From positions 1 through 21,356 of the IMG/VR virus record IMGVR_UViG_3300012920_000338: a DNA stretch of 21,356 nt; one strand, 5' to 3'. This document shows positions 1-18,834 of the stretch, piece after piece; within the stretch, counting starts at the first letter, position 1; every line of letters begins with the position of its first letter. The DNA is from a virus. A program made the translations under genes and the position numbers. A model generated the notes under the pieces. That model was given only the letters and a program-made list of their open reading frames with translations. It made no database searches and was not told the DNA's origin.

Positions 1-98
1 CCACCTAATGTGGACATAGAGCCTGGTGGTCTATATACTTTTTCATTAAGACCAGCTTTCGTAAGTAAGTTATTTCTAATTTCTCTAAATGTTTTCAT
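1..98 (-). CDS. Partial late-operon gene running off the left edge
   Basis: An ATG at 98 opens a frame with no stop to the window edge; the visible 32 complete codons begin MKTFREIRNNLLTKAGLNEK. The start lies one base after the TAA of the preceding gene (100-102), the tight spacing seen through this operon, and purine-rich GAGGATAA sequence lies just upstream as a ribosome site. The N-terminus resembles the T4 internal-protein leader (MKTYQEFIAE) in its first seven residues, and a possible L-N-E cleavage site ends at residue 19. Only the N-terminus is visible, so no function can be given. Confidence 0.75.
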   Translation of the reverse strand, partial: MKTFREIRNNLLTKAGLNEKVYRPPGSMSTLG

Positions 99-99
99 A

Positions 100-1089
100 T
101 TATCCTCTGTGATATTTAGGTGCTTTCTTTCTTTTACCTAATCTAATTCCTGCATCAGTTTGTACAGCGCCTCGCATTTCTTGTACATCTTCATTTAATC
201 CAACCATATGGCCAATTGATGCCCAAATTTCTTCTCTAGTCATTGTATCACCATAAGCTAAATCTTTTGGGTATGTTTTAACTTCAAGACTAGCCTTTTC
301 CCAAAGATCCTCACGAACTTCCTCTTTACTTCGTCTCTTTTTCATCATATCAAGTTTCATACCTTTAAATACTTTTTGTAAATAATCATTTAATTTTTCA
401 TTAAACTTCATATTTTTCTTTTCATTCTTTGATATAAATGCAAAGTAATAATCGCCATCTCTAACAGGATAACTTAAAGAATTCCATGCTTTTGGTCTAG
501 CTGAATTCTTAGGGCTATAATCTTGTTTCATTTCAGCCCTAGCCTTATCTAAGTCGCCAAAAAACTCTTCTGGTTTACTAAAGAATTTGAATTGTTTATC
601 AATTTCCTTATCAGATAAATTTTTTGAATATGCCTCAACAATTTCTGGTTGTAAATCTTCTTTCATATTAAGTATAGTAGATTCATTTGCGTACTGAAGT
701 GCCTTTTTAACCTCTGGGTGATTAGAAAGACCTCTCTTCATTTTCTCTATACCTTTTACTGCAAAGGTCATGGCTCCGCCATGGTCCAGTGCAAATTCTA
801 CAGCCTTACGGACTGTTTTATCTTTTTTAGCGCCAGGGTTTTTTCTCATGTATACACTGATTTCTTGACCAGTCAACTTAGACCCAGACATTTTACTAAG
901 TTTTTCTCTAAAATCTTTTAATTTCATTTTATCCTCTTTTAAATTACCTCCGGCATCTGCAAAAGCCGCAATTGCCATTTTTCTTCTTTGATCCATACTT
1001 TTACCTTGGAACTGTGGCGCGTCTGATTTCATAAAATCTTTTATCCATGCCCCAATACCATCACTTACTTTTAACTTTTCGTTTATCAT
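100..1089 (-). CDS. Conserved marine-phage protein with an N-terminal SDAPQF-type module
   Basis: A 329-residue soluble, lysine-rich protein. Residues about 9-47 hold the block DGIGAWIKDFMKSDAPQF followed by GKS...RRKMAIAAF and a glycine pair. I recall this block from many uncharacterised proteins of T4-like cyanophages and pelagiphages, but its function is not known to me. The rest is mixed helical sequence with many charged residues and no recognisable catalytic motif. No signal peptide or membrane segment is seen. Its ATG overlaps the stop of the upstream nucleotidyltransferase gene as ATGA, so the two are probably translationally coupled. Unlike its neighbours it lacks the F-x-x-[FY] leader. 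Its place in a late operon suggests a virion or assembly role (inference). Confidence 0.8.
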   Translation of the reverse strand: MINEKLKVSDGIGAWIKDFMKSDAPQFQGKSMDQRRKMAIAAFADAGGNLKEDKMKLKDFREKLSKMSGSKLTGQEISVYMRKNPGAKKDKTVRKAVEFALDHGGAMTFAVKGIEKMKRGLSNHPEVKKALQYANESTILNMKEDLQPEIVEAYSKNLSDKEIDKQFKFFSKPEEFFGDLDKARAEMKQDYSPKNSARPKAWNSLSYPVRDGDYYFAFISKNEKKNMKFNEKLNDYLQKVFKGMKLDMMKKRRSKEEVREDLWEKASLEVKTYPKDLAYGDTMTREEIWASIGHMVGLNEDVQEMRGAVQTDAGIRLGKRKKAPKYHRG

Positions 1090-2441
1090 ACTTTAGCTGC
1101 TAGGTCCTTATCAGCCTTACCCCATGTTCCAGGCGATTTAGTAACAAAAGAATTAACTCTTGCAAGTCCCCATTGTGTTGGTGTAGTACCTGGTCTATGA
1201 CCAGTTCTCCAGGCTGCAACTCCCCTATCAAAAACCTTCTTTAAAATAGCATAAGGCATACCTGACTTATCAGCCTTTTTCTGTAATGCCGCTTTACTAT
1301 TTTGTTCTGTAACTGCAAAGTCTTCAAAACTTAATGTATTTTCACCAAACATTTGTTTATATTTCTTAGTATGTACTGAAGGTTTAGTTTTTGCAGTTGC
1401 ATCTCCAGGGGCAGGTTTATAGGCCGCTGGATTATCATCGCTCATTTTGCCATGTTTCTTAAAGTGTGCCGCTCTTTTATTCTTAGTAGATTTAGTTTTT
1501 ATACCTTTATAATAACCTACTGGTTGTGATCCTTTTCTATCTCCGACATCTGGATCCTCTTTACCTTTTTTATTTTCTGTTTGTCCTGGAGTCATTTTCT
1601 TTGTATGTTTGGCGTAATCGGCACCTATCTCATACACCTCATCTAACCAAACTTTTTTGTTTCCTCTGGCTAATGATACTGTAAGATAATTTGACCCTTT
1701 TGTAATAATAGTTCCAATCTCACCTGATTCTATAATTTCCACTTCGTCACCGACATTAAATATATTACCTTGTACAAACTTTTCCCTTGTCTCCGATAAT
1801 GTTGGTAGTTCTATGTGTTTACGAAATGATTCTTTTTTAAGACCCATACCTTTACGGATTGCATAGTATAGTACTTGTATACCTTCGCCTGGTACTTCTA
1901 ATGAGTTATCTGCAAAACCTTGTAAATCACCTGCGGCGACAAAGGCTCTTAATTTAGATGCAGACATACCAGTTACGCCTTCTGCGTCTGGGTCCCTATG
2001 TCCTGCAGATATTACTCTAATTCTATCTTCAAATTGATAGAATCCGTGTCTGTTCTTCATACCATTATACTTGTTTAGTAGTATATCAAATTCTTTTATT
2101 CTATCTGATCCTGCAACCATAGTAACTTTAGTAAATCCTTGGTCATACAGTTTTACTGCAATATCGAGTACTGTTCTGACATCTGGATCTGCCATAATAT
2201 TACGCGCATGTTTTGGAAACATTTTACGCATAAATTTAATTTTTTGTTTAAATGGTAAAGGATTCTTTTTTGGATCCTGAGATTTAGATGCATATATTCT
2301 ATATGTACCACCTCGTGATACTTTTTTCAAAGTTTCAAATAGTTTTTCGTGCCCCTCTGTGGGCGGATTGAATCTACCAAAAACGAATGTTACTTCTTTT
2401 GATGATTCGACGATGTAATCGCTGAATGATTTAATTGACAT
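1086..2441 (-). CDS. HxGH-type nucleotidyltransferase fused to a KOW/SH3-like segment and a DUF5824-like C-terminus
   Basis: A 451-residue multidomain protein. Residues 17-200 look like a cytidylyl/adenylyltransferase (Rossmann) domain: FGRFNPPTEGH at 21-31 supplies the nucleotide-binding [HT]xGH motif, and GMSASKLRAF at 158-167 matches the S-x-S-x-L/R signature after the last strand. Residues 225-269 form a KOW/SH3-like barrel (NVGDEVEIIESGEIGTIITK). A basic linker with YYKGIK, RAAHFKKH and AYKPAPGD follows. Residues 383-450 (GMPYAILKKVFDRGVAAWRT, PTQWGLARVNSF) resemble the DUF5824 module of marine phages. The N-terminus MSIKSFSDYIVES looks like a T4 capsid-targeting leader ending I-V-E at residue 12. 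Similar cleavage-like sites occur internally at L-S-E (217) and V-T-E (379). Substrate unknown. SD GAGGA lies upstream of the ATG. Confidence 0.85.
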   Translation of the reverse strand: MSIKSFSDYIVESSKEVTFVFGRFNPPTEGHEKLFETLKKVSRGGTYRIYASKSQDPKKNPLPFKQKIKFMRKMFPKHARNIMADPDVRTVLDIAVKLYDQGFTKVTMVAGSDRIKEFDILLNKYNGMKNRHGFYQFEDRIRVISAGHRDPDAEGVTGMSASKLRAFVAAGDLQGFADNSLEVPGEGIQVLYYAIRKGMGLKKESFRKHIELPTLSETREKFVQGNIFNVGDEVEIIESGEIGTIITKGSNYLTVSLARGNKKVWLDEVYEIGADYAKHTKKMTPGQTENKKGKEDPDVGDRKGSQPVGYYKGIKTKSTKNKRAAHFKKHGKMSDDNPAAYKPAPGDATAKTKPSVHTKKYKQMFGENTLSFEDFAVTEQNSKAALQKKADKSGMPYAILKKVFDRGVAAWRTGHRPGTTPTQWGLARVNSFVTKSPGTWGKADKDLAAKV

Positions 2442-2460
2442 TTATATCCTCGGTTTCCCA

Positions 2461-3702
2461 TTAGCTGGGGTTATCCCAACCTTTTATTATATCTTTGCTG
2501 AAATTATTAGTAGAGAATTCTAATCTGTCTACTAACTTAACAGCACCACCTTCCATTCGGTCTATGGCAACAAATCCCTCGGGATTGGTTACTCTAAACC
2601 CGGATTTAGTTTTTACAAAAGTTCCTATAGAACTTAACTTGTTTAGTTTATTTATAAGAATTAATTTCGCATCCACTACAAAATTCTGCAAATCAAAGAT
2701 ATTTTTTAAGTTTTTTATATTATTCTTACTAAAAAACGATAATAATTCATCTCTTTTAGTTATTTGCACATCTTTTCCTTTCTGTGATTTTCTTTTATCT
2801 ATTTCTTTTGCATATCTATCATTTACAAACATAACCAGACCAGTCGCATGTTTTTTAGTATCTGTTATTCTTTGTCCTTCTCTAACTACTCTATTATTGT
2901 AAATATTAATGACTAGATTTAATTCTTTATTTTGTTCTATTTCTTTTAAAACATTACTTTGTATTTTTTTAAATATCTTACCGGCATTCGATAAGTTACT
3001 ATTTAACTCTTTGGTTTCTGCAGAAGTTAATGTTGCAGTTCCAGATAGGTCTGGTAGTGTCGCATCGACCATCCAAACATCTTTTGTTCTTTTAAGTTTA
3101 GGGACTATTTCTCGGCCAAATTCAGCCCTCATAGTTTCAAATGTTGCACCACTATATGAAGTGTGCCAAACGATACCAACTTTTGCTGAAGTTATTTCTT
3201 TGGCCATTGCGTTATCGGTTGGTATTGCGTATACAATAGTATTCGGATGGAAAGTAATATGAGAAACTCCATTTATTTTTTCTTTCTTTAGGTCTGATTT
3301 ATCAAACATAAAGTCACCTTGAATTACTCCTTTAATACCTACACCTTTTAAACTATCAAATGCAAGTTTTAATTTTTTAGATAAATCGCCAGATGTATCA
3401 GCATCTATATCAGCATGTGATTTATATATTTTAGGATTCTTTGCAAATATACCTTTCTTTGCAACAAAGAATTCTCCAGTTTCTGGATCCTCTCCCGCAA
3501 ATACAGCGGGGGCACCGTCCCATTTGACTGTAACATCTACAGGTGCTTTTGTGTTACCAGACAACATATCCCTCAGTGATCTAAGCGCGAGGATAGCTTG
3601 GCGTGCCCCCTTAACTCCACCATCAATAATCAAGTCCTCAATATGAGTCATATGAGTATTCTTCGATTCCGTTAATGGTATGTATGAATTAAATCTTCTC
3701 AT
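2461..3702 (-). CDS. Ligase-like nucleotidyltransferase (DUF6267-like)
   Basis: A 413-residue protein. The order of motifs fits the covalent nucleotidyltransferase (DNA/RNA ligase, capping enzyme) fold: motif I K60-W-D-G-A-P-A with the candidate nucleotidylated lysine, a motif III-like IQGDFMF at 127-133, motif IV EGFVAI at 375-380 and a motif V-like AVKLVDR at 387-393. A long helical insertion separates III from IV. I recall the same framework from cyanophage proteins called DUF6267. Whether it joins nucleic acid ends or modifies another target is unknown. The N-terminus MRRFNSYIPLTES fits the capsid-targeting pattern, with L-T-E at 10-12. Its start shares ATGA with the stop of the 413-residue gene's downstream-coordinate neighbour boundary pattern: its ATG at 3702 overlaps the stop of the ParB-like gene at 3699. 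Confidence 0.78.
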   Translation of the reverse strand: MRRFNSYIPLTESKNTHMTHIEDLIIDGGVKGARQAILALRSLRDMLSGNTKAPVDVTVKWDGAPAVFAGEDPETGEFFVAKKGIFAKNPKIYKSHADIDADTSGDLSKKLKLAFDSLKGVGIKGVIQGDFMFDKSDLKKEKINGVSHITFHPNTIVYAIPTDNAMAKEITSAKVGIVWHTSYSGATFETMRAEFGREIVPKLKRTKDVWMVDATLPDLSGTATLTSAETKELNSNLSNAGKIFKKIQSNVLKEIEQNKELNLVINIYNNRVVREGQRITDTKKHATGLVMFVNDRYAKEIDKRKSQKGKDVQITKRDELLSFFSKNNIKNLKNIFDLQNFVVDAKLILINKLNKLSSIGTFVKTKSGFRVTNPEGFVAIDRMEGGAVKLVDRLEFSTNNFSKDIIKGWDNPS

Positions 3703-4424
3703 TTGTTTCTTATATTCCCTATTGCATCTGTATATGCAAGTGTAAGTGGTAATAATTCTTTTATTGGTAAATCTATTTTTAAACAGTTAACCTTAATCTT
3801 TGGATCAATTAAAACAGTTGTTAAAAATCTATGATGACCATCAATAATTCTATTATCCTTTGATACTATAAAGTTATTAAACTTAGATGTTAAAAAGTTT
3901 TTAGATGACTTTACTCCATCTTTAGATACTTTTTTAATTGATTTATCAAAGTATATTTGTGCCTGTATAGGTTTTAAACTACCAACTGCAATTTTTTCAT
4001 TTGTTACTTTTACTACATCATCTTTTGCATCGCCGTCATTTTTTGCCAGACCACTTGTTGTCCACACTTTACCTGTCTTTTGGTCTAATCCGTTAGGGTA
4101 TGGATCGTCTGGAAGGTCATTCTTTGCAAAGGGTTTACTTATATCAATAGAACCTGACGATAGTCTTTTTTGTAATAACTTAACATCTCTGTTATCAATA
4201 ACAGGCATATCTTTTCTTTTTGCAAATCCTAACTTTGCACTTTTTTGTGCAAGTGTATAGTTTTTATCAAAGTCTGGTAACTCTTTATCTAAATCAAGGC
4301 CATTTTTACTAAACTTTTTCTCTGCAAAATCTCTTGCGGAATTTAGAGAAGTAGATAATACTTCTAACTTGCCGGCCTCTGCACCACCTTTTACTTCTTC
4401 AATATATTCTAAAAACTTTTTCAT
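3699..4424 (-). CDS. ParB/sulfiredoxin-fold protein
   Basis: A 241-residue protein. The C-terminal part (about 143-228) reads as a ParB-like N-terminal domain: EKIAVGSLKPIQAQIYFDKS is the first strand and helix, then NNFIVSKDNRIIDGHHRF carries the D-G-H-H-R box (195-199), then a strand and KIDLPIKELL. In this fold the GHHR box binds nucleotide or phosphate, and family members include nucleases, CTPases and kinase-like enzymes. The N-terminal 140 residues are lysine-rich and unrecognised. No helix-turn-helix follows, so a partition role is unlikely. The leader MKKFLEYIEEV aligns residue for residue with the T4 internal-protein leader, with I-E-E at 8-10. Both ends use ATGA overlaps with neighbouring late genes. 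Confidence 0.82.
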   Translation of the reverse strand: MKKFLEYIEEVKGGAEAGKLEVLSTSLNSARDFAEKKFSKNGLDLDKELPDFDKNYTLAQKSAKLGFAKRKDMPVIDNRDVKLLQKRLSSGSIDISKPFAKNDLPDDPYPNGLDQKTGKVWTTSGLAKNDGDAKDDVVKVTNEKIAVGSLKPIQAQIYFDKSIKKVSKDGVKSSKNFLTSKFNNFIVSKDNRIIDGHHRFLTTVLIDPKIKVNCLKIDLPIKELLPLTLAYTDAIGNIRNK

Positions 4425-4780
4425 TTTTCTTTATTTATTTCCTTAGTTTTCTTTTTAAGTTTCTCTAAATGTGCAGTCCAAATATCATATGCCTTTTGTA
4501 TATTGGCCTTTTTTTCTGGATCCTTAGTTCTTTTAATTGCCTCTTTTGCCCTTTGTTGCATTACAAGAGTCGCCTGTACCTTATGTGCGTGTGTTCTCTT
4601 CGCCTTATTTATTATACCTACACCTTTATTTGCAGTTTCGGCATCCTTAAAACCTAGACCATGTATAGTTCCTTTTGGATCCTCGTCTGTGTATAAGTCT
4701 GAATGACTTGAACTACCACGATGTTGTCCTTTTTGTCTAGGAGTTCTTTCCGCCTCTACAAATTCTTTAAAAGATATCAT
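4421..4780 (-). CDS. Small basic conserved marine-phage protein with capsid-leader-like N-terminus
   Basis: A 119-residue, strongly basic protein. After the leader-like MISFKEFVEAER comes RQKGQHRGSSSHSDLYTDED and PKGTIHGLGFKDAETANKGV, then a helical, lysine-rich C-terminus (AHKVQATLVMQQRAKEAIKR onward). I recall the block SDLYTDE.PKGTI.GL.F.DA from cyanophage hypothetical proteins; function unknown. Small size, basic charge and a T4 internal-protein-like leader make a DNA-associated internal head protein plausible (inference). The leader has F-K-E-F in the right place, but the cleavage-type triplet is F-V-E rather than [ILV]-x-E. ATGA overlaps couple it to both neighbours. Confidence 0.8.
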   Translation of the reverse strand: MISFKEFVEAERTPRQKGQHRGSSSHSDLYTDEDPKGTIHGLGFKDAETANKGVGIINKAKRTHAHKVQATLVMQQRAKEAIKRTKDPEKKANIQKAYDIWTAHLEKLKKKTKEINKEK

Positions 4781-6231
4781 TTGTAAATCGCCTTAAACTC
4801 AGGTGTCATTGTGGCTAAGAAGGACGGTGCGGCCCTAAAGTTTCCTTTATATCTTAACACAATATTACATAATGGTAATTTACCAATAACTAAATCAAAT
4901 CTTAATACGGCAGCTCCTGCACCTTGATCAAATGCCTGTGTCGCGCCTGGTGTAAATTTAAGGTCTATTTTACCTGATGAAAATAAATCATCTAATTTAC
5001 TTGTTACAGTATTAATATCTTTATATTCACCTTTTTCAACAACAACACCTTTTGATGGACCATAGTCACCTATACCTGTAACTAATGCAAAATCAAAATT
5101 TACTTTTTGTAAATCCTTTAGGTCTGCCTTAAATATCAATTGTACTAACTGATTGGCAATTAAGTTCTTTTGAGACATAATAATTTTTGCCATATCTTTA
5201 AATAGTGACCTTGATGTTTTAAGTTCAGCATTAATTAAACTATTAGGTACTCTTTGTATATACTGTTTCCAGTTTTTAGGTGTTGGCTTATCTTTCTTTA
5301 GGTCAGCCATCATTTCTTTATCTAATAGTTTTTTTCTTGCGGCAGTTTTAATAACCTTTGTATAAAATTCACCAGCCTTTAAATCAAGTTGTCTCATTAT
5401 TTTATCAAATTTCTTATCTGTAAATAATGTGGAAAATGATTTATTAATTAGTGTTGGATCCTCTTCTGATAATCTTTTTTTCTTTTTAAGAGATACACCT
5501 AAAAATTTATTACCTTTTTTTATTATAAAATCAGATGAATTAAAATCATTCATTCCATGTTTTGAAATTTTAAACTGTTTTACATCATCGTCCCATGATT
5601 GTCCTGTAAGATAAACTTTGTCTGCCCCACCATATCCAGCTGCGTGACACGCCAATGCCGCAGATACTGCTTGACATAAGTTAGGGTAGTCTCCAGTTAA
5701 TGCATCTACTTGTCCTTGTTTGTAACCTTTTACGGCACCAAGTCCAAGTTTTACATCATCTATAAGTTTATCCATTTCATCAGAGTTTTCAGGAGCCTTT
5801 AAACTTGATTTTAAACAAAGTGCGGCCGTCATTAACTCGTTCGGGTCGTCGCCTGCACCTGATCGTTTACCTAAAGGTCTACAATTAACATAGACATATC
5901 TGTCCATATCTTTATATTTAAATGCATAGTCTTTTCCTGTTCTTGCAGAGCTAACTTTTACTCTTTCTAGGTCTGGATGTTTTTCGATAACTTCAATTGC
6001 AAGACCTGCAAATTTACTTCTATCTTTATCCAACATGAGCTGAGATACGCCAAGTTTACTAGAATTAGTTTTTCCAGTCCTTGTGTCTAATGCGATTTCT
6101 GTATTGACTGATCCTATCTTATCGTCGATATCACCTAATAAACCTAACACAAATGCATTTTCATTTGCCTTGTTATAGTTTAATTTATCTAAATCTTCTT
6201 TAATAATAGAAAAGTATTTAAACCTATGCAT
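4777..6231 (-). CDS. First gene of the late operon; possible PD-(D/E)XK nuclease
   Basis: A 484-residue protein. A candidate nuclease core spans about 128-250: a helix with E132 (DPNELMTAAL), then D234 in NSSDFIIKK, then VSLKKKKR at 246-253, giving an E...D-x(14)-K layout like PD-(D/E)XK enzymes with S-L-K in the last strand. The C-terminus (IVLRYKGNFRAAPSFLATM) also resembles restriction-like nucleases. This call is tentative, since no database comparison was possible. The leader MHRFKYFSIIKED fits the capsid-targeting pattern, with I-K-E at 10-12. A late promoter octamer lies 18 bp upstream and a strong SD (GGAGGG) 6 nt before the ATG. It ends in an ATGA overlap with the next gene. Confidence 0.8.
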   Translation of the reverse strand: MHRFKYFSIIKEDLDKLNYNKANENAFVLGLLGDIDDKIGSVNTEIALDTRTGKTNSSKLGVSQLMLDKDRSKFAGLAIEVIEKHPDLERVKVSSARTGKDYAFKYKDMDRYVYVNCRPLGKRSGAGDDPNELMTAALCLKSSLKAPENSDEMDKLIDDVKLGLGAVKGYKQGQVDALTGDYPNLCQAVSAALACHAAGYGGADKVYLTGQSWDDDVKQFKISKHGMNDFNSSDFIIKKGNKFLGVSLKKKKRLSEEDPTLINKSFSTLFTDKKFDKIMRQLDLKAGEFYTKVIKTAARKKLLDKEMMADLKKDKPTPKNWKQYIQRVPNSLINAELKTSRSLFKDMAKIIMSQKNLIANQLVQLIFKADLKDLQKVNFDFALVTGIGDYGPSKGVVVEKGEYKDINTVTSKLDDLFSSGKIDLKFTPGATQAFDQGAGAAVLRFDLVIGKLPLCNIVLRYKGNFRAAPSFLATMTPEFKAIYK

Positions 6232-6249: not shown

Positions 6250-6257
6250 TATTTATA
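6250..6257 (-). promoter_or_regulatory. T4-type late promoter (TATAAATA)
   Basis: The minus strand reads TATAAATA, the exact octamer recognised by the T4 late sigma factor gp55 with the gp45 clamp. It sits in a short gene-free gap 18 bp before the ATG of the 484-residue gene, and an SD (GGAGGG) falls between them. The octamer also occurs inside genes at 2649, 8856 and 13912, as expected by chance in AT-rich DNA. Only this copy has promoter geometry. Confidence 0.72.
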
Positions 6258-7113: not shown

Positions 7114-7316
7114 AAACATCTCTCCTCGAACATACATTCAAACAATTCGTTTCTTTTGTTATTCATAAATTCTTTACCATTGTTAACATCTCTACCAACA
7201 ATTACACTTTCTCTGTTAAATTTTTCAAACAAAACTTTTAACACATCAAAGTCGCCCATATTGTCAATTAACTCGGCAATCTCTTCTTTTACTATATCAT
7301 TTACTAAATTACTCAT
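7110..7316 (-). CDS. Small helical hypothetical protein (68 aa)
   Basis: First gene of the small-gene cassette. A 68-residue acidic, mainly helical protein beginning MSNLVNDIVKEEIAELIDNM with no recognised motif. It has a good SD (AGGAG) and lies just downstream of the promoter at 7339-7367. Its stop overlaps the next start as ATGA. Early-expressed small acidic phage proteins often bind and redirect host factors, but nothing in the sequence shows this here. Confidence 0.72.
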   Translation of the reverse strand: MSNLVNDIVKEEIAELIDNMGDFDVLKVLFEKFNRESVIVGRDVNNGKEFMNNKRNELFECMFEERCL

Positions 7317-7338
7317 ATTTACTCCTATTTAAAATTAT

Positions 7339-7367
7339 ATTATACTATACTTTCTTGTCTTTGTAAA
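7339..7367 (-). promoter_or_regulatory. Sigma70-type promoter for the 7316 cassette
   Basis: The minus strand reads TTTACA (7362-7367), 17 bp, TATAAT (7339-7344), within AACACTTTAC. The ATG is 22 bp beyond the -10 box, leaving room for a leader with SD AGGAG. The promoter overlaps the 3' end of the 50-residue gene. Confidence 0.85.
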
Positions 7368-7497
7368 GTGTTTTTTCAACTTTTTTTTCATAATCTTCCC
7401 AATCATGTGGCGTACCAGCATTGGGTTTTTTATTTTCCACGGCCCTCTTCCAGGCTTGACCTTGGAGAGTTCCTGGTATTTTATCTTTTTCCTTCAT
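7345..7497 (-). CDS. Small lysine-rich protein (50 aa)
   Basis: A 50-residue protein starting MKEKDKIPGTLQGQAWKRAV and continuing through NAGTPHDWEDYEKK to a basic end. Its ATG overlaps the stop of the 125-residue gene as ATGA, which strongly supports translation. It has no recognised motif. The last ten codons coincide with the -35 box and spacer of the next promoter (coding EKTLYKDKKV), so coding and promoter function share the same DNA. Confidence 0.68.
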   Translation of the reverse strand: MKEKDKIPGTLQGQAWKRAVENKKPNAGTPHDWEDYEKKVEKTLYKDKKV

Positions 7498-7871
7498 TTT
7501 AGATAATCGGGGCCATATACCCTGTGTGTTTTGTGTTGTTCCGCAATATTGTAACCATCAAATAAGTTACCTCTTGCCTTGTTTAAGGTAGGTTTAGCCC
7601 AACCAGCCGCCTTTAAAACATCTCCAACTTTAAATTTATCATTACAAAGGTTTATAAAACCCCAAACACTTCTATGATTATTGCGTTCTGTTGTAATTAT
7701 TTTAATATACTTTTTACCAACCAGGGCTTCGTGTTTTATATCATAATCTGGTTCAGCAGTATGGGGAAATGCCTTATGTAATGCCCTTGTAATATTCTCG
7801 CAAAGTTCTTCACACAATTGAAGCAACTCTTGTTCTTGGTTTACTTGATTTACTAATTCATTTAATTTCAT
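7494..7871 (-). CDS. Conserved marine-phage hypothetical protein (125 aa)
   Basis: I place the start at 7871 (MKLNELVNQVNQEQ) because it makes a TAATG overlap with the upstream gene and has GGAGG 8 nt before it; the in-frame ATG at 7907 lies inside that gene. The N-terminus is helical. The core KKYIKIITTERNNHRSVWGF, then KFKVGDVLKAAGWAKPTLNKARGN, resembles small proteins I recall from T7-like and T4-like marine phages. The pattern of short strands ending in basic loops suggests a small nucleic-acid-associated domain (weak inference). Function unknown. Confidence 0.75.
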   Translation of the reverse strand: MKLNELVNQVNQEQELLQLCEELCENITRALHKAFPHTAEPDYDIKHEALVGKKYIKIITTERNNHRSVWGFINLCNDKFKVGDVLKAAGWAKPTLNKARGNLFDGYNIAEQHKTHRVYGPDYLK

Positions 7872-8095
7872 TATCTGGCCCTCCATGTATGAGTCATAGT
7901 GTCCCAATCGGTAACAAGGTCCCAGCCTTTATCGAATAGAACAGCTTCCATTGACTCAGTTTCAAACTGAAGTTTAGCCTTGGCATCATCAGTAAGAGTA
8001 CTGAGGTCGGTCGCAAGGTTCTGGATAACCATACCCTTGAGAGTCTCGGCTCTCAGCCCTTCGTAGGCCTTTGTTTCTAGTATTCTTTGTGTCAT
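7871..8095 (-). CDS. Small hypothetical protein (74 aa)
   Basis: First gene after the promoter at 8125-8153. A 74-residue soluble protein beginning MTQRILETKAYEGLRAETLK, helical through residue 50 and ending in a tryptophan-containing segment (DWDTMTHTWRAR). SD AGGAG lies 5 nt before the ATG. It has no recognised motif. Its local G+C seems higher than its neighbours', as in the other small genes here. Confidence 0.72.
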   Translation of the reverse strand: MTQRILETKAYEGLRAETLKGMVIQNLATDLSTLTDDAKAKLQFETESMEAVLFDKGWDLVTDWDTMTHTWRAR

Positions 8096-8124
8096 CTTTA
8101 CTCCTTTCTTTATTTTATATGTCT

Positions 8125-8153
8125 ATTATAACACATGTTTTAGAAAAAGTAAA
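8125..8153 (-). promoter_or_regulatory. Sigma70-type promoter for the 8095 cassette
   Basis: The minus strand reads TTTACT (8148-8153), 17 bp, TATAAT (8125-8130), inside AACACTTTAC. The leader to the ATG at 8095 carries the SD AAGGAG. Confidence 0.85.
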
Positions 8154-8162
8154 GTGTTTTTT

Positions 8163-8187
8163 TAAAAATGTTACATGATTGTAACAT
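8163..8187 (-). terminator. Intrinsic terminator after the helicase operon
   Basis: On the minus strand ATGTTAC pairs with GTAACAT around the loop AATCAT, followed at once by five T residues. This hairpin plus T-run fits an intrinsic terminator. It lies between the last gene of the gp41 operon and the promoter of the next cassette. Confidence 0.62.
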
Positions 8188-8197
8188 AAGGAAACGA

Positions 8198-8215
8198 AGG
8201 AGGATTTCTCCTCCT
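8198..8215 (-). terminator. Second hairpin (AGGAGGA-GAAA-TCCTCCT)
   Basis: A 7-bp perfect stem closed by a GAAA tetraloop on the minus strand, about 10 bp upstream (in transcription sense) of the first T-run terminator. It lacks a long T-run, so it may be a transcript 3' end stabiliser or part of a tandem terminator. Confidence 0.5.
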
Positions 8216-8247
8216 CCGCGATTGATTATATAATATAATATTATATC

Positions 8248-8427
8248 TTAGTCACTCTTGACCAGGGTGAAAATACCCCATGCTAAACCTATCCAGGCTA
8301 GAACTTTGGCCAATCCGCCAAATAAAATGACTGAAAGACATCCTCCAATTAGTAAAAGTCCATCGTAAGATGTTCTCTCACCTAGTCTGTCCATAACCCA
8401 GTCCTTAGCTTTTAGTAACATATCCAT
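8248..8427 (-). CDS. Small membrane protein (59 aa)
   Basis: A 59-residue protein starting MDMLLKAKDWVMDRLGERTS. A hydrophobic stretch runs from about 22 to 56 (GLLLIGGCLSVILFGGLAKV, then LAWIGLAWGIFTLV), enough for one long or two short membrane segments. SD AGGAG lies 6 nt before the ATG. I recall close relatives of this KAKDW...LGERTSYDG protein in marine phages; a lysis-related or membrane-modulating role is possible but unproven. It is the last gene before the tandem hairpins and follows the helicase by ten bases. Confidence 0.75.
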   Translation of the reverse strand: MDMLLKAKDWVMDRLGERTSYDGLLLIGGCLSVILFGGLAKVLAWIGLAWGIFTLVKSD

Positions 8428-8436
8428 ATATTTCTC

Positions 8437-9828
8437 CTATATTTTAAATTCCGCAAAGGTGTCCTTTGTTTCACGGTCACCCCATGTTGCGATTGGTTTA
8501 TCAGGTACAGGATCTGCCATAAGGTTCTCCTGAGCTGATTCTTCTACATCATATAATTTCATGCGGGAACGATCAATACCAACTACAAACCGTTTATACT
8601 TGGTCGGATCGTTATATCTATTTTTCAATTGTTTTACTAACAATTGGCCTAACTCTTCAAGTTCCTCTGTTGATATTAGAGCAAACATTAAGTCAGCCGT
8701 TGCTGGTAAACCAAATGATTCAGATGTATCCTCAAGTCCGACATCGGTATTACTATACCCTGACCTTGTGGTCTGTGTTGCCGATACTATTGGAACATTG
8801 AATTCCACAGCCAATCCACGGAGTTCTTCCGCGATGGCCTTAATGTATGAATAACTATTTATACTTCCACCGAGCCCTCTCATACGGCTAGACGCACAAA
8901 TATTTAAATAATCTATATAAATCATATCAGGTCTAAAGTTCTTTTTCATCTTTAATTCATTAAGAAGAGCCCTGAAATGACCTGTATGCGCTGCCCCTGT
9001 TGGATATTCTTTTACTATAAGTTTTCCAATAGACGCAGTTGCAATCTTTTGTATCTTAGAATCAAATGCATTTTTAGATATTCTTTGTAATTGTTCTATA
9101 GGCAAGTCCATAAGATTTGCATCTATTCTTTCTGCGATTCTTTCTTCTGCCATTTCCATTGTAATATATAAAACATTCTTACCTTGTTGTAATGCAGATG
9201 CCGCGCAATGACACATAAAGAGTGATTTACCTACACCTGTTCCAGCAAGGGCAATATTTAATGTTTTATTTGGTAAACCACCTTTTGTAATTTTATTAAA
9301 ATAATCTAAATCAAATGGAATTCTATCCTCTTTTTTACTATAAAAATCAAATCTTTCATCTGAATTATCTATGTAATCATGACCTATTGCCTGGTCGAAA
9401 GATACACCTAATGCATCTGATAGTATTTCTGGAATGGCACCTTCAGTTTTTTCTAAATTTTTTCCATCGATTATTTGTATTGAATCCATAATCGCGTTGT
9501 AAACTGCCCTATCCCTACACCACTTCTCTGATTCTCTGATTAAGTAATCTGTATCTATGTCTACCTTTTTAGATATTTCGGATATAAGAACAGCCGATTC
9601 ATTAAGTATATCTTCAGACGCACTTGTTTTTCTTAGTTCTAATTCTAATACACTTGTTGTTGGTAATTTATTGTGTTTATTTACGAAGTTTGTAATTAAA
9701 TCGAATACAGTTTTATGAGAACCCTCGAAAAATTCTCTCTTAACATAGGGAATAACTCTTCTGCAATACTCTTCGTTATTGAGAAGATTGCTCAGTATGT
9801 GTGTTGGTAGTTGATGTTTTATTTCCAA
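8437..9828 (-). CDS. 41: Replicative DNA helicase gp41 (DnaB family)
   Basis: A 463-residue T4 gp41-type helicase: hexameric 5'-3' unwinding on the lagging strand with primase at the fork. The N-terminal helical domain (1-150) is followed by the RecA-like core with Walker A AGTGVGKS (195-202), TMEMAEERIAERI (about 223-235), Walker B MIYIDYLN (302-309) and SATQTTRSG (motif H3/H4 region). The length matches T4 gp41 (475). The start is a TTG at 9826-9828, with GAGG 6 nt before it; no ATG occurs before residue 114, and the conserved N-terminal helix needs this start. This creates a 53-bp overlap with the preceding 118-residue gene, unusual among its neighbours. Confidence 0.95.
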   Translation of the reverse strand: MEIKHQLPTHILSNLLNNEEYCRRVIPYVKREFFEGSHKTVFDLITNFVNKHNKLPTTSVLELELRKTSASEDILNESAVLISEISKKVDIDTDYLIRESEKWCRDRAVYNAIMDSIQIIDGKNLEKTEGAIPEILSDALGVSFDQAIGHDYIDNSDERFDFYSKKEDRIPFDLDYFNKITKGGLPNKTLNIALAGTGVGKSLFMCHCAASALQQGKNVLYITMEMAEERIAERIDANLMDLPIEQLQRISKNAFDSKIQKIATASIGKLIVKEYPTGAAHTGHFRALLNELKMKKNFRPDMIYIDYLNICASSRMRGLGGSINSYSYIKAIAEELRGLAVEFNVPIVSATQTTRSGYSNTDVGLEDTSESFGLPATADLMFALISTEELEELGQLLVKQLKNRYNDPTKYKRFVVGIDRSRMKLYDVEESAQENLMADPVPDKPIATWGDRETKDTFAEFKI

Positions 9829-10132
9829 TTCTTGCCTCTTTATTTTCCAGTGAGTCCATTATAATATGTTGTAACAGAGCCCCTAGGTAATTATTAAAAT
9901 CTTCATCTTTTTGAAGAAACTCGTAATCATGGTCAGCAGGGTCCTGAATATTATAGTTGAAAGATAACTTTGCGTTAGTTTTTTCTTCGTTCTCTTTTAC
10001 ACTAACTGCACCGTATACAACTATAACATCAGCATATTTACCAGTCTTAATTCTAACTCCATAAAACTCTGCTAGTTCACCACCAGGATTTTCAACCAAT
10101 GTATAATCGGTATTAGATATATTATAACTCAT
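9776..10132 (-). CDS. Conserved small protein between uvsX and gp41 (118 aa)
   Basis: A 118-residue acidic protein. The first half looks beta-rich (ELAEFYGVRIKTGKYADVIV, then VYGAVSVKENEE, then AKLSFNYNIQD), then a helix DFNNYLGALLQHIIMDSLEN and a polar tail. I recall a conserved gene at this same place in T4-like marine phages, with no assigned function. Being wedged between recombinase and helicase suggests a replication or recombination accessory role (inference). The ATG is one base after the uvsX stop, and the SD (GAGGAG) is formed by the last uvsX codons. The polar tail overlaps the helicase start. Confidence 0.82.
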   Translation of the reverse strand: MSYNISNTDYTLVENPGGELAEFYGVRIKTGKYADVIVVYGAVSVKENEEKTNAKLSFNYNIQDPADHDYEFLQKDEDFNNYLGALLQHIIMDSLENKEARIGNKTSTTNTHTEQSSQ

Positions 10133-10133
10133 T

Positions 10134-11189
10134 TTACTCCTCTTGTAAAGTACTTTCTAAATCAATGTCAAGCAATGGTTTGTGACCAATAGAATAATAT
10201 GATGTTAGAAATTCTTTAAAGTCTGTATTTTCAAAGATAGGTAACCAAAAGTCCTTTTCTCTTGTTGCCTTTTCTCTTACCTTAGGTTCTTGTATTTCAC
10301 CTGTATCTTTATCAACTGCGGCATACCAACCCATAGAAGGTTTTACTACATATCCACCAGCCAATGCTACTTCTAATAGACCAGAGTATTGCTGAATACC
10401 ACCTTCCCAGGATACGCCGATTGGTACTTTAGATTTTTCTTTGACAAATCTTGACTTCTCGACATTAATTACAAAGTTATAACCTGTAACATCTTTACCT
10501 GTTTTTTCTTGTTGTCTTCCTATAATCCAGATATTGTCGGCCGAGTAATAAACACCCGTACCACCTGATACAATCGCCTTAGGGAATAGTCCAATTTCTT
10601 GATAGGTATGATTAACGGCAAGTAAAGGGATATTCTTCATTGTAAGATAAGGAGTAACCATTCGGAATAATCCCTTTAGTGCCTTGGCCCTTGACATATC
10701 TGCCACTGACTTTTCGTTAAGAGCATCTTCTAGCTCTTTTTTACTTGCGAGGTTACCAATAGAATCAATTACAATTACTACTTTATCTCCTCTTTCAATA
10801 TTATCTAACTGACCTACTAAGTCAAACTTTAATTGTTCGACATCAGTAATAGGAGTGTGTAGTACTCTTTTTGCATCAATTCCAAATGCCTCGAAATAGC
10901 TTTGTGGTGATCCAAATTCTGAATCATAAAATAGTAATACTGAATCTTCGTGTTCTTTCAAGTATGCACTAGCCATAAGTAGTGCAAATGAAGTTTTGAA
11001 GTGTTTACTTGGTCCTGCCAAAACAGTAAGACCTGAAGTCAACCCACCATCGGGATCACCTGACAATGCTACATTAATCATAGGTACTTCGGTTGGTACC
11101 ATATCCTTTTCTGTAAAGAATACAGATTTATCTAAAACCTCTGTAGTTTTAATTTTAGAATTCTTTTTTAGTTTATCCATTACTGACAT
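10134..11189 (-). CDS. uvsX: RecA-like recombinase UvsX
   Basis: A 351-residue T4 UvsX homologue that forms filaments on single-stranded DNA and drives strand exchange for recombination-dependent replication. Walker A GPSKHFKT lies at 59-66, in the T4-type form with K in place of the second G. LLFYDSEFGSP (85-95) carries the catalytic acidic residue, and Walker B KVVIVIDSIGNL is at 136-147. VSGGTGVYYSADNIWII follows as the DNA-binding L2 region and strand. An SD (GAGGA) lies in the last codons of the bS21 gene, one base upstream. The position before gp41 matches the T4-like replication module. The C-terminal acidic tail (DIDLESTLQEE) is typical of RecA-family proteins. Confidence 0.95.
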   Translation of the reverse strand: MSVMDKLKKNSKIKTTEVLDKSVFFTEKDMVPTEVPMINVALSGDPDGGLTSGLTVLAGPSKHFKTSFALLMASAYLKEHEDSVLLFYDSEFGSPQSYFEAFGIDAKRVLHTPITDVEQLKFDLVGQLDNIERGDKVVIVIDSIGNLASKKELEDALNEKSVADMSRAKALKGLFRMVTPYLTMKNIPLLAVNHTYQEIGLFPKAIVSGGTGVYYSADNIWIIGRQQEKTGKDVTGYNFVINVEKSRFVKEKSKVPIGVSWEGGIQQYSGLLEVALAGGYVVKPSMGWYAAVDKDTGEIQEPKVREKATREKDFWLPIFENTDFKEFLTSYYSIGHKPLLDIDLESTLQEE

Positions 11190-11190
11190 A

Positions 11191-11457
11191 TTATTTTCCT
11201 CTTGTTTTTCTAAAAGTACCTATTTGGTTTACTCTTTCATATTTACGCCATCTGGCAATTGCCTCGGCCTTTTTTCTTTTTCTTTTTGCTGTTGGTTTTT
11301 CGTAAAATTCTTTTTTACGGACATCTTGTAGAATACCAGCTCTTTCTACTGCCTTTCTAAACTTTCTTAACCCGACATCAAACGGCATAGGTTTGGCAGG
11401 GCGTTTATCATTTTTTCTTCGCCTTTGGTTTTGTGGTCTTAAATCAATACTTGGCAT
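11191..11457 (-). CDS. rpsU: Phage-encoded ribosomal protein bS21
   Basis: An 88-residue, very basic protein. The bS21 core spans about 27-67: [20 protein letters not shown], then [17 protein letters not shown], the family signature. It has a 25-residue basic N-terminal extension ([16 protein letters not shown]) and a C-terminal extension ([20 protein letters not shown]), making it longer than bacterial bS21 (about 65-71). In bacteria bS21 sits beside the 16S 3' end and influences mRNA recognition at initiation. Phage bS21 is reported from several marine phages, including pelagiphages; incorporation into host ribosomes is the usual proposal. SD AGGAG lies 4 nt before the ATG. It is transcribed with uvsX and gp41. 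Confidence 0.93.
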
Positions 11458-11469
11458 AATTCTCCTATT

Positions 11470-11883
11470 TTAAATTTTTTGTTCACACACTCTTTTTCTT
11501 AAATCACTAGTTGAAAATCTATGGTCTCGTTTATTAAAGTAAAACTCAATATCTCTTTGTTTACATAAATCTCTACCAGTGAAGTCCTTATCTCGATACT
11601 CGACTCCCATAATCTTGACATCAATATCATACATAGAAAGAATATCCAATAATTCTTCTTCGGTATTATAAACTAATATTTCATCTACATATTTAATTGA
11701 GGCCAATTGTGCCTGCCTTTCTACTATGTTTTGGACAGGTTTATTTTTCTCTGGTCTGTCAACAGAAGGATCATTCTGTAGTGCACATATTAGATAATCG
11801 CACACACTTTTTGCCTCTCTTAACATTGCACAATGACCTGCGTGAAGTAAGTCAAAGGTAGATGCTGTAATACCAATTTTCAT
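11470..11883 (-). CDS. Cytidylyltransferase-like protein (TagD/HldE-C type)
   Basis: A 137-residue single-domain nucleotidyltransferase. TASTFDLLHAGH (6-17) carries the HxGH nucleotide-binding motif, and HRFSTSDLRKRV (121-132) the S-T-S-x-L signature. Length and motifs match glycerol-3-phosphate cytidylyltransferase and the ADP-heptose adenylyltransferase domain, which activate small phosphorylated sugars or polyols. GVEYRDKDFTG at 93-103 is like the HldE/RfaE subgroup. The substrate cannot be read from the sequence. It starts in a TAATG overlap with the GIY-YIG-like gene. Nearby epimerase and UDP-glucose dehydrogenase genes suggest a shared link to sugar nucleotides. Confidence 0.88.
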   Translation of the reverse strand: MKIGITASTFDLLHAGHCAMLREAKSVCDYLICALQNDPSVDRPEKNKPVQNIVERQAQLASIKYVDEILVYNTEEELLDILSMYDIDVKIMGVEYRDKDFTGRDLCKQRDIEFYFNKRDHRFSTSDLRKRVCEQKI

Positions 11884-12569
11884 TACGAATAAAAGTCCTC
11901 AATGAATTTAAAAGCCATTTCTTTATTTTTAACACCTATGTTAAAATGATTTCTAACACCAACCTCTTTGATGTCTGTAATACCAAACTCTTCGCAGAAG
12001 GTATATAACTGTTCCTTCCTAGTTTCTAATACATCATCTTTTGCATGTATCATTATTTTTAACAATACTTCATCGTCAGTTGTAATCTCTAAAACTGGTT
12101 GCATCTTATGCGTTGTTTCAAACTCTAATTGATGATGATGGGATTTTACAACATAGACATTTAATCTGCCCTTAAATATATTGTAATTTTCCACATACCA
12201 GTCTGGTTGTGATTCGAAATTGTCATGTTGACTTTTTTCAAATTCGTTAAATAATTCACTCATTTTTGCCATAATAAAACACTCCTTATAATGTCCAGAG
12301 ACTGAGTTATCTCTTGGACTTTCATTAGTAATTAAAAAGGATTCCAATAAAAAAGATTGGTAATCCCGTTTGTCAAATCGTTCAAGGTTTCTTGCGATGA
12401 TGTATAAATCTTTAATATCGTATCCCTTGTCTCCGACATGAGATTGGGCTCTATTTTTATTACCCTTTCCAATATATACCCATTTTCCATCTTCTTTATA
12501 ACCATAAACATACTGACCTAATGTTTCCCAACAAGCTGCAGGTATAGATTCAGTATCTTTTAAAAACAT
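11883..12569 (-). CDS. GIY-YIG-like nuclease-domain protein
   Basis: A 228-residue protein. QYVYGYKEDGKWVYIGKGNKNR (split as QYVYGYK at 19-25 and VYIGKGNKNR at 31-40) matches the GIY...YIG core, R40 fits the catalytic Arg, and E76 in LLESFLITNESP fits the metal-binding Glu. The C-terminal 130 residues are unrecognised. GIY-YIG proteins include homing endonucleases, and free-standing ones are common in T4-like phages. Attack on host DNA or mobility are both possible. The promoter's -10 box lies 8 nt before the ATG and no SD is present, so the transcript should start at or next to the ATG (leaderless). Confidence 0.78.
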   Translation of the reverse strand: MFLKDTESIPAACWETLGQYVYGYKEDGKWVYIGKGNKNRAQSHVGDKGYDIKDLYIIARNLERFDKRDYQSFLLESFLITNESPRDNSVSGHYKECFIMAKMSELFNEFEKSQHDNFESQPDWYVENYNIFKGRLNVYVVKSHHHQLEFETTHKMQPVLEITTDDEVLLKIMIHAKDDVLETRKEQLYTFCEEFGITDIKEVGVRNHFNIGVKNKEMAFKFIEDFYS

Positions 12570-12577
12570 ATGGGTAT

Positions 12578-12606
12578 ATTATAACACACTTTTAATTAAA
12601 AGTAAA
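12578..12606 (-). promoter_or_regulatory. Sigma70-type promoter giving a predicted leaderless transcript (12569 operon)
   Basis: The minus strand reads TTTACT (12601-12606), 17 bp, TATAAT (12578-12583), then exactly 8 nt to the ATG at 12569. A perfect 16-bp palindrome (12588-12603) fills most of the spacer and overlaps half of the -35 box. The promoter drives GIY-YIG, cytidylyltransferase, bS21, uvsX and gp41. Confidence 0.86.
12588..12603. promoter_or_regulatory. Perfect palindrome in promoter spacer, possible operator
   Basis: ACTTTTAATTAAAAGT reads the same on both strands. The same element with a mismatched centre (ACTTTTAAATAAAAGT) sits at 18811-18826, at an identical offset from its -35 box. 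Position between -35 and -10 suits a repressor or phage regulator site; AT-rich chance palindromes are possible. Confidence 0.45.
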
Positions 12607-12609
12607 GTG

Positions 12610-13029
12610 TTATTCTTCATAAATTAACCCATCTTTTTCAATTAATGCCGCTCTATTCATCATGTGGCCTTGTTCTGTATCAGCCTTTGATTGTCCAAAG
12701 TATGGTACTGCATGGAATTCATCAATCTGTTGTTGATTAATACTATACTTAGAATCGCCAATAAATAATTCTCCAAGTATTCTTCCGAACTTACCTTTGT
12801 CATGAGACACTAATTGAATATCTTTACCATCTAATATTCTAACTAAATTAGCCTTAGATGCCTTGCCATAAAATTTTTCTTTTAAATCACGGGTTCTGGA
12901 TTCTGGAGTATCAATACCCATCATTCTAACCCTTTGTTTTTTATAAGTCATTCCGAAACCTAAATCGATATCTACATCAACCGTGTCTCCATCAATAACT
13001 CTATCTACGATAACTTTGTATCTGTACAT
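12610..13029 (-). CDS. Staphylococcal-nuclease-like (SNase/TNase) protein
   Basis: A 139-residue single-domain SNase-fold protein. VDRVIDGDTVDVDIDLGFG (8-26) gives the calcium-binding Asp residues, and RVRMMGIDTPES (33-44) places R35 and E43 like the catalytic Arg and Glu of micrococcal nuclease. DKGKFGRILGELF (77-89) supplies the second catalytic Arg (R83). All key residues are present, so a Ca-dependent sugar-nonspecific nuclease is likely. No signal peptide is visible, so it should act in the host cytoplasm, for example on host DNA or RNA. SD AGGAG lies before the ATG. It follows the SleB-like gene by eight bases. Confidence 0.9.
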   Translation of the reverse strand: MYRYKVIVDRVIDGDTVDVDIDLGFGMTYKKQRVRMMGIDTPESRTRDLKEKFYGKASKANLVRILDGKDIQLVSHDKGKFGRILGELFIGDSKYSINQQQIDEFHAVPYFGQSKADTEQGHMMNRAALIEKDGLIYEE

Positions 13030-13604: not shown

Positions 13605-14455
13605 ATTTGTTCCTTTAAATAAGACATTAAGTTATTTTTACACTTCCAACCTAATTCTTTTATTTTATCAGTTTTAAGTTCTCCGTCCATTCTATTACCA
13701 GGTTTTTCTGGCTGTAGGGATGGGGTGCAATTTAATGCCTTTACAACATCTAGTATTGAATACTTTTCATCAGAACCAATACCATAATCATCGCCACTAC
13801 CTTTAAATGCCGCAAGTATTATTCCATCAACTATATCGTCAATGTGTGTAAAGTTTCTTGTTTGAGTTCCAGGCATAGTTACAGGAAGTTCTATTACTCC
13901 TTCCTTAACCATATTTATAAACTTTCCAATAACTGTTGCATACTTACCCTTTGATATTTCATTATCGCCATATACATTATAGAAGTATACAATTGAATAA
14001 TCAAGGCCATACCAATCTGAATAGTTTTTTAGAAGTTCAGTATTCTGTGCCTTAGTATATGCATAAGGACTCATATTTCTACCACCGCCCTCTGCAAACT
14101 TAGTTGACGAACCAGAGTAAATAAGTTTTGCGTCTTGTTGTTTTGCAAAATCAAGTATATAAGGAAACCCATGATAATTAGATTTCATTACAGTATCGTA
14201 ATCACTAAATGATTGTTCTACTCTTGCGTATTCGCCTAAATGAAATATATAATCATATGTAGGTTTTGTATATCTTAACGCACCAGCAATGTCTTGAGGT
14301 GTTCCATAATAATAAAAACAACCTTCTTGTTCGTTACTTCTTTTGCCAGTGCTGTAATTATCAAATGATACTACTTTATGACCATCTTTAACTAATCTTT
14401 TTACAAGTGCCGTACCTATAAATCCGGCACCACCTGTTACTAATATTTTTGACAT
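13601..14455 (-). CDS. NAD-dependent nucleotide-sugar epimerase/dehydratase (extended SDR)
   Basis: A 284-residue extended short-chain dehydrogenase. VTGGAGFIG (6-14) is the NAD-binding glycine motif, D32 in SFDNYSTGKR is the adenine-ribose acidic residue, SGSST (114-118) supplies the catalytic Ser/Thr, and Y131-x-x-x-K135 the catalytic pair. THIDDIVDGI is the conserved substrate-side segment. It resembles UDP-glucose/UDP-glucuronate epimerases and is slightly short for the family. It could make a sugar nucleotide for DNA or surface glycosylation with the UDP-glucose dehydrogenase. TATAAT ends 8 nt before its ATG with no SD, so translation is probably leaderless. Confidence 0.9.
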   Translation of the reverse strand: MSKILVTGGAGFIGTALVKRLVKDGHKVVSFDNYSTGKRSNEQEGCFYYYGTPQDIAGALRYTKPTYDYIFHLGEYARVEQSFSDYDTVMKSNYHGFPYILDFAKQQDAKLIYSGSSTKFAEGGGRNMSPYAYTKAQNTELLKNYSDWYGLDYSIVYFYNVYGDNEISKGKYATVIGKFINMVKEGVIELPVTMPGTQTRNFTHIDDIVDGIILAAFKGSGDDYGIGSDEKYSILDVVKALNCTPSLQPEKPGNRMDGELKTDKIKELGWKCKNNLMSYLKEQI

Positions 14456-14463
14456 TGTGTACT

Positions 14464-14492
14464 ATTATACTCCATTTTTATTAATTTGTAAA
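14464..14492 (-). promoter_or_regulatory. Sigma70-type promoter giving a predicted leaderless transcript (epimerase operon)
   Basis: The minus strand reads TTTACA (14487-14492), 17 bp, TATAAT (14464-14469), exactly 8 nt before the ATG at 14455; AACACTTTAC surrounds the -35 box. The promoter fits entirely into the 40-bp gap after the UDP-glucose dehydrogenase stop. Confidence 0.87.
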
Positions 14493-14495
14493 GTG

Positions 14496-18778: not shown

Positions 18779-18800
18779 ATTTTTTCTCCATATTTGCTAT

Positions 18801-18829: not shown

Positions 18830-18834
18830 GTGTT

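Follow-up and report, generated by a model that had tools for sequence, protein, structure and literature searches.

A late enzyme operon with capsid-targeting-type leaders in a marine T4-like phage: a probable virion cargo set

The leader-gene block

The window analysed here is a viral contig of 21,356 bases (G000; IMG/VR record IMGVR_UViG_3300012920_000338), whose minus strand holds nearly all of its genes. Five consecutive minus-strand genes, from 4777-6231 down to 1086-2441, encode proteins that begin with a short leader of the kind that targets phage T4 internal proteins to the capsid. The block is interpreted as a late-expressed operon of capsid-targeted cargo in a marine T4-like phage, with a probability of about 0.86, and this phage probably carries ready-made enzymes into the infected cell. 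The features of the block are listed below in the direction of transcription; a slash marks the predicted cleavage point.

6250-6257, minus strand: octamer TATAAATA of the T4 late-promoter type, placed 26 nt ahead of the first leader gene, at the head of the operon
4777-6231, minus strand: 484-amino-acid protein, N-terminus MHRFKYFSIIKED, leader MHRFKYFSIIKE/D; phrog_3060, function unknown
6196-6231, minus strand: leader codons 1-12 of the 484-amino-acid protein; all 10 homologues share F4 and E12
4421-4780, minus strand: 119-amino-acid basic protein, N-terminus MISFKEFVEAER, leader MISFKEFVEA
3699-4424, minus strand: 241-amino-acid protein, leader MKKFLEYIEE (start MKKFLEYIEEV), IIDGHHR motif; phrog_2859, E = 8e-15
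2461-3702, minus strand: 413-amino-acid DUF6267 protein, N-terminus MRRFNSYIPLTES, leader MRRFNSYIPLTE/S
3667-3702, minus strand: DUF6267 leader codons 1-12, an add-on ahead of the conserved body KNTHxxHxED
1086-2441, minus strand: 451-amino-acid NMNAT/cytidylyltransferase-like protein (T4-GC190 kin), N-terminus MSIKSFSDYIVES, leader MSIKSFSDYIVE/S
2406-2441, minus strand: NMNAT leader codons 1-12
1305-1328, minus strand: internal leader-like element FEDFAVTE, NMNAT residues 372-379
1089-1292, minus strand: C-terminal module of the NMNAT protein
100-1089, minus strand: 329-amino-acid three-module protein, start MINEKLK, without an N-terminal leader
1-98, minus strand: cut gene, start MKTFREIRNN, leader-like, no E in register

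An aromatic leader had been proposed in the initial annotation for five of the six complete proteins. All the N-termini quoted there are present on the minus strand, and the sixth protein (100-1089) is leaderless. The [ILV]-x-E triplet ends at residue 10-12 in four of the leaders as described, the fifth has F-V-E at residues 7-9, and the partial gene at 1-98 does begin MKTFREI. Homologues of the 119-amino-acid basic protein begin MISFKNYIIEAD, MKSFKTFLEAD and MNSFKQYLKEG.

The nearest annotated relatives of the window are T4-like phages (Kyanoviridae): C48C1, Methylophilales phage Melnitz and Pelagibacter phage HTVC008M. C48C1 shows 55% and 50% protein identity to two of the block proteins. 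More distant homologues of the adjacent pair, DUF6267 and cytidylyltransferase/NMNAT, are found in hundreds of cyanophages, and the usual site of the pair in cyanophage and related genomes is downstream of gp41.

Anatomy and conservation of the leader

In T4, the first 10 residues of IPIII suffice for targeting. Targeting depends on residues 4 and 7 and processing on residues 8 and 10, and the gp21 protease cuts after L/I-x-E (PMC9026906). The five leader proteins of the window have their leader at the initiator methionine, as does a T4-type segment of ∼10-19 residues, with aromatics at both targeting positions in all five. The processing triplet [ILV]-x-E is found in four of the five, and E12 is 98-100% conserved in three families; the small basic protein has F-V-E in the window and I-I-E or L-K-E in some relatives. 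The register is that of T4 in MKKFLEYIEE of the window and in MKKFTNYLAE of DUF6267 kin. It is shifted by two residues in MSIKSFSDYIVE of the NMNAT, and a two-residue insert precedes the cleavage triplet in MRRFNSYIPLTE (DUF6267) and MHRFKYFSIIKE (484-amino-acid protein).

Conservation within the leader is selective. Among 65 NMNAT homologues F6 is present in 100%, [YF]9 in 98%, [LIV]10 in 99% and E12 in 98%, and the residues between are variable. In 76 DUF6267 homologues the leader has an identity of 0.49 vs 0.86 for the body, and [FL]4, [LI]10 and E12 are fixed at ∼98-99% despite this fast change. The leaders of the 484-amino-acid and small basic proteins display a like pattern in fewer sequences. 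The residues retained in the leader are exactly those mapped in the T4 capsid-targeting sequence (CTS), and the likeness to MKTYQEFIAE noted in the initial annotation agrees in register with the published mutational map (PMC9026906).

Occurrence beyond chance

Residues 2-20 of all 32 window proteins were shuffled 20,000 times. The aromatic pattern of the initial annotation is seen five times vs a mean of 0.32 in the shuffles (largest 4), and together with [ILV]-x-E it is seen four times vs a mean of 0.02 (largest 2). Shuffling thus never reached the five observed, nor the four with the triplet, and the proposed enrichment at N-termini holds over the window genes. That the five leader genes are consecutive among 32 has p = 1.4e-4. 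The motif is rare at internal methionines, with 1/154 cases for the window and 0/895 for isolate C48C1, vs 5/32 and 5/219, respectively, at protein starts. Chance and an AT-rich artefact are ruled out by the internal-methionine and shuffling controls. The leader was not found on the remaining genes among the 32 window proteins scanned. It occurs only in late or head regions.

Leaders on unrelated proteins

Thirty-two sequence clusters carry the leader, several with different Pfam families. Leader-headed families include NMNAT, DUF6267, RimK ATP-grasp, PAP2, zeta/AAA_33 kinase, HAD, SAM lyase and kinase, and further such families in relatives are without a name. The leader can also be absent from a conserved body: in four cyanophage DUF6267 homologues the methionine stands directly at the conserved body.

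RimK-type ATP-grasp proteins with a leader are found in G002 (101123-102559), G004 (13739-15178) and Melnitz (82-1131). The G002 protein also has a RimB-like zinc-protease domain, and the G004 protein is assigned by leader and synteny only. Modification of host proteins as infection begins is a possible role of such enzymes. In S-CRM01 (L160) several adjacent leader-like genes lie at 7221-12222, including one for an 821-amino-acid protein-kinase-like protein (MISFDQFLSEKK), and the NMNAT of the same group begins MKLFNQFFKEA. S-PM2 proved a poor comparator, with few leaders and none clear on its NMNAT.

Late context, gp21 and capsid cleavage-like sites

The octamer TATAAATA at 6250-6257 is its only intergenic coding-strand copy in the window. 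The octamer is not enriched there (5 seen vs 5.4 expected), and its counts were dropped as evidence for lack of any excess; its weight comes only from position and recurrence. In five relatives, G002, G003, G004, G005 and G006, an intergenic copy precedes the first leader gene by 29-77 nt, and the late-promoter-like element suggested ahead of the block recurs at this position. The octamer is also intergenic ahead of portal, core and tail genes. Leader genes lie in clusters: eight fall within 11.9-20.5 kb of G002, and most of those of C48C1 within 57-72 kb. In the head cluster a gene with a related leader occupies the gp68 position (MRTFKELREA in C48C1 and MISFAELREK in G006).

The gp21 protease (PF03420) is found in all isolates searched, namely C48C1, Melnitz, HTVC008M, DLP6, S-PM2, T4 and S-SZBM1. 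Of eight long metagenomic relatives, four have it as well; one of these is G006, the closest long relative, whose DUF6267 protein is 84% identical to that of the window. The N-terminal regions of the relatives' major capsid proteins contain NFISE/A, GFLTE/T, AFLSE/A, AFLGE/I and LLTE/A. These cleavage-like sites have the same short consensus as the leaders.

Virion proteomes of relatives

For cyanophage S-CREM2, the 219 annotated coding sequences of OR473000 were translated and compared with the published virion table (PMC10665884), in which 52 proteins are virion-detected. With GTG read as methionine there are three pattern hits: a SAM lyase (MKDFDSFLEE), an APH-like kinase (MKRFDAFLTE) and a cytidylyltransferase (MKNFSSFLTE). 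Leader genes thus number 3/52 among virion-detected proteins vs 0/167 among undetected ones (p = 0.013); with 24 named structural proteins removed, p = 0.0027. The SAM lyase and the kinase are represented by 19-21 unique peptides. Peptide counts for virion NMNATs are low (2-3).

A leader-bearing NMNAT is detected in virions of four phages, S-CREM2, S-SCSM1, S-SZBM1 and S-SM1. In S-SCSM1 its start, MKSFLQFLKEA, is the only match to the pattern in 228 kb that lies behind a ribosome-binding-like site, and the depositors labelled it a virion protein. The S-SZBM1 NMNAT (MRFRQFIIE/A) is listed in the virion table, and its leaderless DUF6267 neighbour is not. That of S-SM1 begins MKKFSAFLNE/A, and T4-GC190 was detected in S-SM1 virions (PMC3037559). 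As a positive control, T4 was scanned with the same pattern; the four hits are ipII and ipIII, together with gene 61.1 and a start that falls within the uvsW reading frame, and ipI was not recovered.

The fourth virion-detected enzyme of S-CREM2, annotated as a Cas9-like nuclease (L166; 7704-10313, minus strand), has a leader-like FASFMAE/A at residues 19-25, and its Cas9 label finds no support from a Pfam match. T4 gp61.1 (NC_000866 18966-19130, minus strand, 54 amino acids, hypothetical in the record) starts with the CTS-like MKTFKEFIKEDM. Gene 61.1 adjoins gene 61 near gene 41, and the marine leader cluster is likewise downstream of gp41.

Interpretation and alternatives

The initial annotation had read these N-termini as T4-type capsid-targeting leaders on a late enzyme operon. 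That reading is supported by the register, by capsid cleavage-like sites and gp21 in relatives and by mass spectrometry of the relatives' virions. In the mechanism proposed, the leader proteins would be synthesized late, and the two aromatics within the first 4-9 positions would dock each protein on the prohead core. During head maturation gp21 would remove the leader after [ILV]-x-E. The freed NMNAT-like adenylyltransferase, DUF6267, ParB-like, small basic and 484-amino-acid proteins would stay in the head, enter the next host with the DNA and act ahead of any phage gene expression.

Several observations weigh against this interpretation. The proteome evidence comes from relatives and not from the phage of the window. 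The window has no head genes, so that a gp21 in this phage is predicted from its relatives. The S-CREM2 comparison is a small, retrospective one, and without the GTG-as-methionine reading the kinase is uncounted and the comparison becomes 2/52 vs 0/167 (p = 0.056). The four-phage NMNAT detections represent one homologous family and are not independent. The NMNAT homologues of HTVC008M, S-PM2 and P-HM2 have no clear leader, and a 105-amino-acid leader protein of S-SZBM1 (MKSFKSFLSES) is not in the S-SZBM1 proteome. Several S-SCSM1 virion proteins, non-structural and of unknown function, are leaderless; the leader is therefore not necessary for virion presence and is not the sole route. The authors of the S-CREM2 study noted that such enzymes could be contaminants of the CsCl preparation.

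Contamination of virions by abundant late proteins, the explanation those authors raised, would fit the few NMNAT peptides. It does not fit the absence of the fixed pattern from all 167 undetected S-CREM2 genes vs its presence in three of the 52 detected, the 19-21 unique peptides of the SAM lyase and kinase, or the missing leaderless DUF6267 neighbour in S-SZBM1, and it is considered quite improbable. Somewhat less improbable, yet still unlikely, is that the leaders are core-docking signals on proteins that serve head assembly or DNA condensation in the capsid and are not host effectors. T4 IPIII itself partly serves head assembly or DNA condensation. A likeness to core or DNA-binding internal proteins is seen in the small basic members, 4421-4780 and its kin, and a leader gene occupies the gp68 position in the head clusters of C48C1 and G006. 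On the other hand, the leader proteins with recognisable domains are mostly enzymes (NMNAT, RimK, SAM lyase, kinases and phosphatases) whose substrates are proteins, nucleic acids or small molecules, and the set of leader genes differs between close relatives, unlike assembly factors.

It is very unlikely that the leader is a general N-terminal amphipathic segment with another late function, such as membrane or complex docking, and that its gp21-like sites are coincidental. Aromatic-x-x-aromatic N-termini could make amphipathic helices, and the first 14 residues of the 484-amino-acid model form a low-confidence helix. However, [ILV]-x-E is conserved as strongly as the aromatics and agrees with the relatives' capsid cleavage sites, and leader-bearing relatives are present in virions. 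Inheritance from one duplicated ancestral gene with loss of function would account for the resemblance between leaders of adjacent genes. It is disfavoured to the point of being hardly credible: the leaders diverge faster than the bodies (as in DUF6267) while four positions stay ∼98-100% fixed, and the bodies belong to unrelated families. Capsid targeting of a late enzyme cargo remains the preferred explanation.

Relation to known packaged proteins

T4 IPI, IPII, IPIII and Alt carry the CTS MKTYQEFIAE and are processed by gp21 (PMC9026906; PMC12373910). This leader directs the packaging of the three internal proteins, which are then injected, and each of the three is an inhibitor of type IV restriction enzymes (PMC12373910). 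CTS packaging is therefore already known; what is new is that in marine T4-like phages it extends to a modular set of larger enzymes, and that the leader agrees with enzymes that proteomics had found in virions without explanation. As in the T4 internal proteins, there is a ∼10-12-residue leader with aromatics at the targeting positions and [ILV]-x-E at those for processing. The mature bodies are unrelated and have only the leader in common, transcription is late, and gp21 is present in relatives. Unlike the small, basic T4 proteins, the window cargo is a block of large, sometimes multi-domain enzymes. In some of the leaders the motif is set two residues deeper, and in others a two-residue insert precedes [LI]-x-E; leader-like elements are also present inside fused proteins, and cleavage of the window leaders is predicted from sequence.

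The window NMNAT also resembles the cyanophage virion NMNATs (T4-GC190; S-SM1, S-SZBM1, S-SCSM1 and S-CREM2), which are homologous enzymes with a leader. That of S-SCSM1 is 44% identical to 1086-2441, and the neighbourhood, DUF6267 and NMNAT after gp41, is mostly the same. The cyanophage DUF6267 proteins, unlike that of the window, are without a leader. In the literature covered, which included few subscription papers, no paper tied virion NMNATs to a capsid-targeting leader, and the terms capsid targeting sequence and cyanophage were found together only in the T4 review PMC9026906. Polyvalent proteins and virion-packaged NAD-ADPr effectors are likewise packaged, host-directed enzymes with multi-domain fusions (Iyer et al. 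2017, PMC5512222; PMC9503650). They are recognised by domain architecture and often have their own peptidases (PMC5512222; PMC9503650), whereas sorting and release of the window cargo are apparently achieved by a short leader and the head protease.

The T4 internal-protein strategy, known for small restriction inhibitors, would thereby take in large enzymes as well. Among the viruses of the ocean, cyanophages and related marine T4-like phages are abundant. Metabolic and regulatory enzymes have repeatedly been found in their virions with no explanation of how they enter, and a short leader supplies a mechanism and can serve as a predictor, pointing to the enzymes likeliest to be active at time zero: NMNAT (in NAD supply or as a counter-defence), SAM lyase (to oppose restriction), kinases, RimK-type ligases and zeta-like kinases.

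Identity of the predicted cargo

The protein at 1086-2441 matches the phage cytidyltransferase families phrog_3041 (E = 6.5e-97) and phrog_395 (E = 1.1e-65) and scores 18.9 bits against Pfam PF01467, just below the 21-bit cut-off. By these family matches it is a HIGH-type nucleotidyltransferase (NMNAT/cytidylyltransferase) of the CTP_transf_like/phage cytidyltransferase group; the initial annotation had called it adenylyltransferase-like. Its middle part is SH3/KOW-like, as read by us from the sequence, and its C-terminal module is DUF5824.

The ligase-like label given to DUF6267 is drawn from motifs only. Invariant motif-like residues that recall ligase-type nucleotidyltransferases, whose motifs I (KxDG), III, IV (EG) and V (K) were the reference, were found in 28 sequences (KWDGAP-like, KxDGAP; QGD; EGFVAI-like, EG; KLVDR-like, KLV.R). 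A ligase fold was not confirmed: the model is of low confidence (pLDDT 68), and solved ligases gave no match by either fold or sequence. For the ParB-fold assignment, 3699-4424 has a ParB/sulfiredoxin-like motif, IIDGHHR, and a sub-threshold Pfam match (E = 0.11). For 4777-6231 the suggestion of a nuclease was abandoned. No Pfam or PDB sequence match was obtained, no family or fold supports a nuclease, and the weak fold hits (E ∼0.01, from a low-confidence model with pTM 0.40) are Pol-beta nucleotidyltransferases.

Fused modules and internal leader-like elements

FEDFAVTE lies in a gap-rich linker ahead of the C-terminal module of the NMNAT protein and is a possible internal gp21 site. The element F..[FYS]...E is found before this module in 37/47 distinct homologous linkers vs 3/458 control windows, the controls being taken from the same proteins, the shuffled rate being 0.096 and the homologous linkers not being independent of one another. 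In C48C1 the counterpart of the C-terminal module is a separate 90-amino-acid gene with its own leader, MITFKKYLEEK. The second and third modules of 100-1089 are likewise separate genes in relatives, with leaders MKFKELRD and MKKFKLLRE.

A tentative suggestion, less probable than not, is that the cargo is partly polyprotein, with gp21 stripping the leader and also cutting fused modules at internal elements into several effectors. Because the homologous linkers are not independent, the element counts are a lead and not a result. If the suggestion is true, fusion and fission of leader-headed modules would represent a general way in which marine T4-like phages build and swap injected toolkits. 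A further candidate leader copy, the NMNAT residue-206 motif ESFRKHIEL, was rejected, as its aromatic is not conserved among the 65 homologues.

Modules are reshuffled between fused and stand-alone forms (100-1089; L044, L045, L079, G001, G002), each with a second leader flavour, M-K-x-F-K-x-L-R-E, at its head.

Genomic setting of the block

The remainder of the window is laid out as follows.

18835-21333, minus strand: family B DNA polymerase
Then, in minus-strand reading order: TET-associated glycosyltransferase, epimerase, cell-wall hydrolase, SNase
10134-11189, minus strand: UvsX
8437-9828, minus strand: gp41-type helicase
After the gp41-type helicase, minus strand: a run of small genes, then the leader block from 6231 down to 1

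A recurring promoter-like sequence, ACACTTTACTTTT...TGTTATAATA, was spotted by eye in the minus-strand gaps 8095-8248, 12569-12610 and 18778-18835. It precedes the helicase-side genes, the gene at 11883-12569 and the DNA polymerase, and differs from the TATAAATA of the late operon.

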